A DNA stretch of 51,655 bases. Source: an uncultured Pelagibacteraceae bacterium (GTDB lineage: Bacteria > Pseudomonadota > Alphaproteobacteria > Pelagibacterales > Pelagibacteraceae). The notes under the pieces are model-generated. The model worked only from the letters and a program-made list of their open reading frames with translations, made no database searches and had not been told where the DNA came from. The position numbers and the translations under genes were made by a program. The stretch is from NCBI GenBank assembly GCA_902588255.1, contig CACIOK010000004.1, forward strand, positions 7,501-59,155. The letters are read 5' to 3'. Positions 828 to 50,387 of the stretch are shown here, one piece after another (the stretch's first letter is position 1; every line of letters starts with the position of its first letter).

Positions 828-903
828 TGGTGGAGGATAGCGGGATCGAACCGCTGACCTCCTGAATGCAAATCAGGCGCTCTCCCAGCTGAGCTAATCC
901 CCC
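828..903 (-). tRNA. tRNA-Ala (TGC)
   Basis: A complete 76-base cloverleaf on the minus strand with encoded CCA. The acceptor is GGGGGAT/ATCCTCC, the D-loop has the normal GG pair, the anticodon loop carries TGC, and the T-loop is the normal TTCGATC. It lies between tRNA-Ile and 23S in the standard bacterial rRNA spacer position. It is a useful internal control for the abnormal T-loops of the tRNA-His and tRNA-Phe genes elsewhere in the window. Confidence 0.97.
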
Positions 904-912
904 CATTAAATT

Positions 913-989
913 TGGTGGGCCGAGAAAGACTCGAACTTTCGACCCCACCCTTATCAAGGGTGTGCTCTAACCAACTGAGCTACCGGCCC
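913..989 (-). tRNA. tRNA-Ile (GAT)
   Basis: A complete 77-base cloverleaf on the minus strand with encoded CCA. The acceptor is GGGCCGG/TCGGCCC with a terminal G-T wobble next to the D-arm, the D-loop is AGTTGGTTA, the anticodon is GAT, and the T-loop is the normal TTCGAGT. It is co-transcribed with 16S upstream and tRNA-Ala downstream. Confidence 0.97.
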
Positions 990-48268: not shown

Positions 48269-49628
48269 CTATTAAATCCTTTTTTGAAATTGTTAACTGA
48301 TTTTCCTCACCTTTTTTTAATAAAAGTTTCTTAATTGTGATTGTATTGTCTTTAAATTCGTTTTCTCCACAAATTATGGCCAACGGTAATTCTCTTTTGT
48401 TTGCGTATGTTAATTGTTTTCCAAGATTTTTTTTACTATCTAAATAAATTTCACTGTTTATCCCATTTGATCTTAATTCTTCTAAAATTTCATAATATTT
48501 TGATAAATACTTAGTATCCATAACACAAACTAAGACTGGTTTTTTTTCGTTAACATTTAGTTGATTTATTTCTGAAAGAATCGCCGTTAATCTCGTAACT
48601 CCAAAACTTATACCTACACCGGGTGTGGATAAACCTTTAAATGAACCAATCAAGTCCCGATATTCTCCGCCGCTGCAAATAGATAAACCACTTCCAAAAT
48701 TAGGAATATTCAACTCTGTTTCAACTAACCACCCTGAGTAATAATTGATCCCCCTAACCTTTTCGATACTTAACTTAATTTGATTAGAATATTTTCCGTA
48801 ATCAAGTATTTCTAATAATTTTTCTGTTTCCATTATTCCTTCTTTTGATAAAGGATTCTTAAAAACTGAACTTATTTCTTTTAAGTCTTTTAGTTGAAGG
48901 GAATTAATTATTGTTTCAATCTGAACATTTGAAAGATCTGCACCAATTGTAACTGCGCCTGATTTATCAACTCTTTTACTTCCTAACAAATCTTTTACAC
49001 CAGATATACCAATATTTGGATTGCTTAGTTTATCAATAGCTCTAAAAACTTTAAATTTTTGTTTTTCATCTGTTATTTTAAGATCGTTTATCAGTCCTTC
49101 AATTATTTTTCGATTACTTATACATATTTTAAATTGTTCTTTTTTAAAGTTTAATTTAAAAAGTGTGTCTGCAATCAAATTGCATAATTCGGCATTGGCC
49201 TGATATTTATCTACATTGCCTATTATATCACAATCAGCTTGTGTAAATGATTTTAGACGAATTTTTTTTTGTGGCTTTTCACGCCGTGCAACATCACCAA
49301 TGCAATAGCGTTTATAAATGGGTGGAAGCTCAAGATAGTTAGCTGCATACATTCGAGCCAAGCCTGCTGTCATGTCGTATCTATATGTCAATTGCTCTTT
49401 ACCATCTTCAAAAGAATAAACGTCTGCCATAGGGTTATTAGGATCGTCAGCAAGAAAGCTTCCAATATTTTCACTTCTTTCAAAAATTGATTGCTCTAGG
49501 GCTGAAAATCCAAAATTTATAAAATTATCTTCGATAATTTTAATTATATTTTTTTTTAGCTCTAGCGTATTTCCTTTATAATCTAGAAACCCACTTGGTA
49601 AGCTTGGTATTTTTTTGTCTTTACTCAT
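48234..49628 (-). CDS. hisS: histidyl-tRNA synthetase
   Basis: A 464-aa class II synthetase. 'SGFLDYKGNTLELKKNI', 'FERSENIGSFL', 'YRYDMTAGLARMYA', 'REKPQKKIRLKSFTQADCDI' and a C-terminal anticodon-binding domain are present. It belongs to the alphaproteobacterial/eukaryote-like type that goes with A73, G-1-less tRNA-His. I place the start at ATG 49628, because a longer reading from 49673 would run into the tRNA-His gene just upstream. Confidence 0.95.
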   Translation of the reverse strand: MSKDKKIPSLPSGFLDYKGNTLELKKNIIKIIEDNFINFGFSALEQSIFERSENIGSFLADDPNNPMADVYSFEDGKEQLTYRYDMTAGLARMYAANYLELPPIYKRYCIGDVARREKPQKKIRLKSFTQADCDIIGNVDKYQANAELCNLIADTLFKLNFKKEQFKICISNRKIIEGLINDLKITDEKQKFKVFRAIDKLSNPNIGISGVKDLLGSKRVDKSGAVTIGADLSNVQIETIINSLQLKDLKEISSVFKNPLSKEGIMETEKLLEILDYGKYSNQIKLSIEKVRGINYYSGWLVETELNIPNFGSGLSICSGGEYRDLIGSFKGLSTPGVGISFGVTRLTAILSEINQLNVNEKKPVLVCVMDTKYLSKYYEILEELRSNGINSEIYLDSKKNLGKQLTYANKRELPLAIICGENEFKDNTITIKKLLLKKGEENQLTISKKDLIDAVTKFITKNN

Positions 49629-49631
49629 TTT

Positions 49632-49705
49632 TGGTACCCGATTCCTTATTCGCAAAGGACCCTTTTCTTTCACAGAGAAATATGCTTCTACTACACCAAT
49701 CGGGC
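49632..49705 (-). tRNA. tRNA-His (GTG), with A18/G55 elbow
   Basis: A complete 74-base cloverleaf with encoded CCA. The acceptor is GCCCGAT/ATCGGGT (G1-U72 wobble), the anticodon stem is TTTCT/AGAAA with loop CTGTGAA, and the T-stem is TCCTT/AAGGA. There is no encoded G-1 and the discriminator is A73, as known in a group of Alphaproteobacteria. The D-loop is AGTAGAA and the T-loop TGCGAAT: position 18 is A and 55 is G, whereas G18 and U55 are almost universal. G19 and C56 are kept. It lies three bases before hisS. Confidence 0.93.
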
Positions 49706-50312: not shown

Positions 50313-50387
50313 TGGTGGCCTTGGTTTGAATCGCACAAACGACACATACCTTTTCAGGGTACTGCTCTACTACTGAGCTACAAGGCC
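50313..50387 (-). tRNA. tRNA-Phe (GAA), with A18/G55 elbow
   Basis: A complete 75-base cloverleaf with encoded CCA: acceptor GGCCTTG/CAAGGCC, D-stem GCTC/GAGC, anticodon loop CTGAAAA, T-stem GTTTG/CAAAC. The D-loop is AGTAGTA and the T-loop TGCGATT, so positions 18 and 55 are A and G instead of G and U, exactly as in tRNA-His of this window. All stems are intact, which argues against decay. It is 12 bases downstream of infA. Confidence 0.94.

Follow-up and report, generated by a model that had tools for sequence, protein, structure and literature searches.

The window analysed here is a 51,655-nucleotide stretch of DNA from the 0.90-Mb draft genome, 73% complete, of a SAR11 bacterium (Pelagibacteraceae). 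Near one end, its minus strand carries a tRNA-Phe, a cold-shock-like gene, a tRNA-His and hisS, in that order, with 3 nt separating the encoded CCA end of the tRNA-His from the hisS start codon (Table 1). Few bacteria of the ocean are more common than SAR11. The contact between G18 and U55 is the near-universal interaction that holds the bend of a tRNA together. The tRNA-His does not have it: G19-C56 is retained, and 18 and 55 are A and G instead. The first-pass annotation had drawn attention to this elbow, to identical changes at 18 and 55 in the tRNA-Phe, and to a normal tRNA-Ile and tRNA-Ala elsewhere in the window; all three observations stand, with the loop sequences given in Table 1. The T-loops of the tRNA-His and the tRNA-Phe both contain TGCGA, which matches the sequence pattern UGNRA.

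Table 1. Features of the window bearing on the tRNA elbow (positions counted from the first letter of the window).
Feature	Position	Strand	Remarks
tRNA-His(GTG)	49632..49705	-	encoded CCA; A73, no G-1; A18/G55 elbow
tRNA-His D-loop AGTAGAA	49686..49692	-	A18 = 49689, G19 = 49688
tRNA-His T-loop TGCGAAT	49648..49654	-	T54, G55 = 49653, C56, G57, A58
hisS, histidyl-tRNA synthetase, 464 aa	48234..49628	-	ATG at 49628; directly downstream of tRNA-His
cold-shock-like gene	50149-49937	-	between tRNA-Phe and tRNA-His
tRNA-Phe(GAA)	50313..50387	-	A18/G55; D-loop AGTAGTA 50374..50368; T-loop TGCGATT 50335..50329
tRNA-Ile(GAT)	913..989	-	G18/U55; control
tRNA-Ala(TGC)	828..903	-	G18/U55; control

When its region is scanned alone with the Rfam tRNA model (RF00005), the tRNA-His scores 45.5 bits against a gathering threshold of 29. 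The same gene (49632-49705) was overlooked by ARAGORN and by a filtered Rfam scan of the whole window, and SAR11 tRNA sets may thus be under-counted. Genes of this kind can escape the usual tRNA finders, so tRNA catalogues of both SAR11 and phages are probably incomplete.

Only three of the 24 tRNAs found in the draft genome (His, Phe and Val(GAC)) are A18/G55, and the remaining 21 are G18/U55; the earlier inference that the change is limited to certain tRNAs is thereby borne out, with Val(GAC) as a third case. The tRNA-Val(GAC) lies on a separate contig and has the D-loop AATAGTA and the T-loop AGCGTAA, with A-T in place of T-A at 54-58. The genome G267, from the same genus and complete in a single contig (1,199,990 bp), yielded 32 tRNAs for all 20 amino acids, among which the sole tRNA-Phe, the sole tRNA-His and tRNA-Val(GAC) are A18/G55 and all others G18/U55. 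Because the only Phe and the only His genes of this complete genome carry A18/G55, such tRNAs must work, and its gene content, without expression data, indicates that they are used in translation as the only tRNAs for their codons. The suggestion that the elbow is weakened finds no support in a genome that relies on it in this way, and the reading given here needs no link to the bypass elements. Elsewhere, A18/G55 occurs in the Phe and Val(GAC) tRNAs of another complete genome (G012) and, in partial tRNA catalogues, in Phe, His and Val(GAC) of G029, Val(GAC) of G004, and Thr(GGT) of G037, which belongs to a different family of the order. The tRNA-Thr(GGT) of G004 (D-loop TAATGTTA, T-loop TTAGATT) is apparently G18/U55, with U19-A56 replacing G19-C56.

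A BLAST search with the tRNA-His alone returned one relative only, so hisS was taken as the anchor for fetching relatives, and tRNA-His and tRNA-Phe were read at 110 hisS loci. The cloverleaf finder left the letters of the D- and T-loops unconstrained and fixed loop lengths only. Every SAR11 A18 was accompanied by G55, and neither G18/G55 nor A18/U55 was seen in about 200 SAR11 tRNA-His and tRNA-Phe genes and several tRNA catalogues, so the compensatory-pair idea passes the survey of 18/55 covariation that the first-pass annotation had proposed as a check. The HisRS tree requires a minimum of 17 state changes in tRNA-His and of 11 in tRNA-Phe, positions 18 and 55 switching jointly each time; when only supported branches were used, independent pairs were concordant in 9/9 cases for each tRNA.

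Not all of these changes on the tree are mutations, and independent mutations are fewer, since some switches are replacements of the whole tRNA gene. In the nearest relative, L056 (HisRS 85%), the tRNA-His is G18/U55 and quite a different gene. Four further loci (L039, L065, L083 and L092) have a clearly different tRNA-Phe of the same isotype in the same place. In-place change appears to account for the near-minimal tRNA-His pair L028 and L067, whose 8 differences comprise 4 acceptor-pair exchanges, with 18, 55 and 57 among the rest. The anticodon stems of A18/G55 and G18/U55 tRNA-Phe in SAR11 are identical, and close HisRS relatives go with either elbow (e.g. L026 and L056; L060 and L120). 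Outside SAR11, a scan of 385 Alphaproteobacteria and 399 Pseudomonadota with the A18 D-arm pattern TAGCTCARNAGNAGAG and a free T-loop found no real A18 tRNA; all non-SAR11 matches were checked, and the scan is blind to tRNAs with another D-stem or with a D-loop of any length but 7 nt.

The same elbow is found in tRNAs of many phages. A pattern modelled on the Val-like form led to at least 67 viral contigs, nearly all bearing recognisable tRNAs, of many isotypes. Among the matches listed, 1441 distinct tRNAs were read in 416 viral loci; those with an unambiguous D-loop comprised 319 A18/G55, 8 A18/U55 and 1 A18/C55, together with 936 G18/U55, 16 G18/C55 and 0 G18/G55. The contigs were selected with patterns and the counts cover only the matches listed, so they do not tell how frequent each form is in phages. 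When phage tRNAs retrieved by their own elbow pattern are left out, the matches listed contain 189 A18/G55, 6 A18/U55, 0 G18/G55 and 936 G18/U55 (Fisher p = 5e-210, a value inflated by ignoring kinship). Retrieval from one side likewise gave the partner: among the phage matches listed, A18 D-arms with a free T-loop had G55 in 63/63 cases with a 7-nt loop and 52/54 with an 8-nt loop, and G55 T-arms with a free D-loop had A18G19 in 15/16. Applied to 1.34 Mb of reversed sequence as a control, the finder called no cloverleaf, and chance can be set aside as the source of the pattern. Together with the SAR11 covariation, which lacks mixed forms, this supports the proposal that A18-G55 is a compensatory, tolerated elbow rather than an error.

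All 20 isotypes are represented among the phage A18/G55 tRNAs, and some viral contigs are almost wholly of this type (15/15 tRNAs in L427, 16/17 in L374 and 12/13 in L679). Named phages with at least one such tRNA are Mycobacterium phage Rey, Mesorhizobium phage Cp1R7A-A1 and Pseudoalteromonas phage J2-1; phage T5 has none. In two of them an A18/G55 tRNA gene is absent from the public annotation (L802 1890-1964 in Cp1R7A-A1; L807 3185-3259 in J2-1).

Other tertiary pairs of the elbow also vary in a concerted way. Among the matches listed, phage A18/G55 tRNAs have T-A (169), G-G (82) or A-T (70) at 54-58, and position 60 is nearly always A when 54-58 is G-G or A-T, mostly a pyrimidine when it is T-A. 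Both A-T and G-G at 54-58 are present in G18/U55 tRNAs too, but more rarely. Also among the matches listed are 16 phage tRNAs (e.g. L273) in which G18A19 is found with U55U56, so that A19-U56 takes the place of G19-C56. Because these other pairs (54-58 with 60, and 19-56) covary, the alignment of loop positions is probably right, which serves as an internal check. T-loops of the forms GGCAGNA (G54/G58) and AGCRTNA (A54/T58) occur in SAR11 (L066 and L102) and in many viral contigs, nearly always with A60.

We interpret the A18/G55 tRNAs as ordinary working tRNAs in which A18-G55 is an alternative tertiary elbow pair, replacing G18-psi55 below a retained G19-C56. We put the probability of this reading at about 0.85, in the absence of structural, charging or translation data. 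The mutual dependence of 18 and 55 is established at the level of sequence; the exact geometry, the lack of dependence on psi55 and the normal function of these tRNAs are inferences. The riboswitch literature describes UGNRA lonepair triloops of the T-loop type, whose G pairs with an A from outside the loop, the result being a composite GNRA tetraloop (PMC2258182, with reference to Lee, Cannone and Gutell 2003). A tRNA elbow with A18 and G55 would take up this known arrangement, which would explain the joint change, the kept G19-C56 and the kept R57. G55 would be the second nucleotide of a UGNRA-type T-loop, and A18 of the D-loop would slip between R57 and position 58 and pair with G55, so that G55, C56, R57 and A18 form a composite GNRA-like turn. 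The data are best read as an isosteric pair between A18 and G55 of the kind seen in UGNRA T-loops, its geometry being inferred. Neither half is likely to be tolerated alone, which would be why both sides change together, and an A18-G55 pair could neither receive nor need pseudouridine 55.

The UGNRA lonepair triloop has also been described for rRNA. The UGCGA T-loops of the tRNA-His and tRNA-Phe in the window match it, but in riboswitches and rRNA it is not a contact between the D-loop and T-loop of a tRNA. Moreover, the A54/T58 and G54/G58 subtypes break its U...A frame and do not meet the UGNRA sequence pattern; judged by their letters, they misfit a plain UGNRA loop, and further adjustment would be needed. 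With the canonical elbow (G18-psi55 and G19-C56), the A18/G55 tRNAs share G19-C56, the stems, the stack position of the purine and the 7-nt T-loop, and they differ in the exchanged pair at 18-55; as there is no U at 55, they have no psi55.

Loss of TruB, the otherwise near-universal psi55 synthase, could have released U55 from constraint, so that elbows drifted to an unmodified alternative. TruB was found in 0/25 genomes of the genus of the window, single-contig ones included, and in 9/9 tested genomes of other genera. Across 147 genomes of the family, TruB_N is confined to the genera g283, g285, g5 and g289, leaving g1, g280, g281, g282, g284 and others without it; TruB is also present in family f2. 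A18/G55 in Phe and His is seen only in TruB-less genera, those for tRNA-Phe being g1, g280, g282 and g291 (in g282 and g291 the state is taken from a D-arm pattern identical to that of g280, with the T-loop unread). With 4/10 TruB-less against 0/4 TruB-bearing genera for Phe, however, there are too few genera for significance, and the association is suggestive only. Most tRNAs of TruB-less genomes also keep G18/U55. Furthermore, A18/G55 occurs beside TruB in Val(GAC) of genus g289 and in Thr(GGT) of G037, and phage hosts such as Mycobacterium should have TruB as well. These Val, Thr and phage examples make TruB loss at most permissive: as a cause in its own right it remains possible, though we would not favor it, and the loss of TruB in several SAR11 genera probably eased the switch in Phe and His without being required. 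A search for TrmFO gave only weak matches to proteins of 620-640 aa, which we take to be the MnmG paralogue.

Somewhat less likely still is that the elbows arose in phage tRNAs, reached SAR11 when tRNA genes were exchanged or replaced, and then spread between isotypes. tRNA genes are common sites of phage integration, a D-loop AATAGTA combined with a T-loop AGCGTAA or GGCAGAA is common to phage and SAR11 tRNAs, and gene replacement is visible in SAR11 at the tRNA-His and tRNA-Phe loci named above. On the other hand, the anticodon stems common to both SAR11 tRNA-Phe forms and the near-minimal tRNA-His pair point to change in place, and no SAR11-like A18/G55 tRNA-Val was found in the named phage collection. 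On our preferred account, an alternative elbow pair in working tRNAs, A18/G55 has been gained and lost many times in SAR11 (in Phe, His and Val(GAC), and in Thr(GGT) of another family of the order), through in-place change as well as replacement of whole tRNA genes.

The remaining explanations carry very little weight. Small genomes with single tRNA copies, and a G18-to-A change that matches AT bias, might suggest the decay of elbows in a reduced AT-rich genome, A18/G55 being weakened and merely tolerated; G55 in place of U55 opposes that bias, however, and the strictly joint change, the kept G19-C56 and stems, the sole reliance on such genes for Phe and His and the recurrence of A18-G55 across every isotype in phages led us to reject this as highly improbable. 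Recognition by a co-evolving HisRS or PheRS is harder yet to credit: SAR11 tRNA-His is already odd in its identity features (A73 and no G-1; PMC3937112), as we also see in the SAR11 tRNA-His examined here, but the spread of the same change over Phe, His, Val, Thr and all 20 phage isotypes rules against it, as do closely related HisRS paired with either elbow. An artefact of sequencing, assembly or annotation, conceivable for a draft genome whose tRNA-His was overlooked by tRNA finders, is refuted by the Rfam score and by independent genomes (from single cells, from metagenome assembly and in single contigs) that show the same features.

A natural precedent for the pair itself may lie in viral RNA. 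Work by de Smit and colleagues in 2002 is said to have found that the equivalent of 18-55 covaries between G.U and A.G in the tRNA-like structures of plant viruses, and reportedly only G.U and A.G work in turnip yellow mosaic virus. The pattern is the one seen here in phage tRNAs (319 A/G and 936 G/U against 8 A/U and 0 G/G among the matches listed, which also include 16 G/C). The likeness is one of pattern and not of membership: the plant-virus structures are 3' ends of viral genomic RNAs, whereas the elbow described here belongs to cellular tRNAs that have no alternative for their amino acid, and to tRNAs of every isotype in phages. Eukaryotic tRNA-Ala likewise shows natural joint changes of tertiary pairs (at 15-48 and at 54-58), position 60 being a purine, but no changes at 18-55 were reported there, and its pairs were stated to be absent from bacteria (Westhof et al. 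2020, PMC7566577). A limited search of the open-access full-text literature found no report of A18/G55 in tRNAs proper. As far as could be found, then, an A.G pair at 18-55 is reportedly known from a tRNA mimic and apparently new in working tRNAs.

Psi55 has been called universally conserved in reviews (PMC7912444; PMC4810234). A18-G55 may constitute a second stable elbow type that needs no psi55, by which phages would be free of host TruB, in some cases for almost their entire set of tRNAs, and which SAR11 would have adopted in essential tRNAs while losing TruB; we offer this only tentatively. Our data nonetheless document a natural exchange of the 18-55 pair in tRNAs indispensable to a free-living, very abundant ocean lineage, together with the loss of TruB. 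The 18-55 pair reportedly matters for translocation, according to work by Pan and colleagues in 2006. The natural exchange provides a ready-made test of the roles of the 18-55 pair and of psi55 in folding, modification, RNase P processing and translocation.
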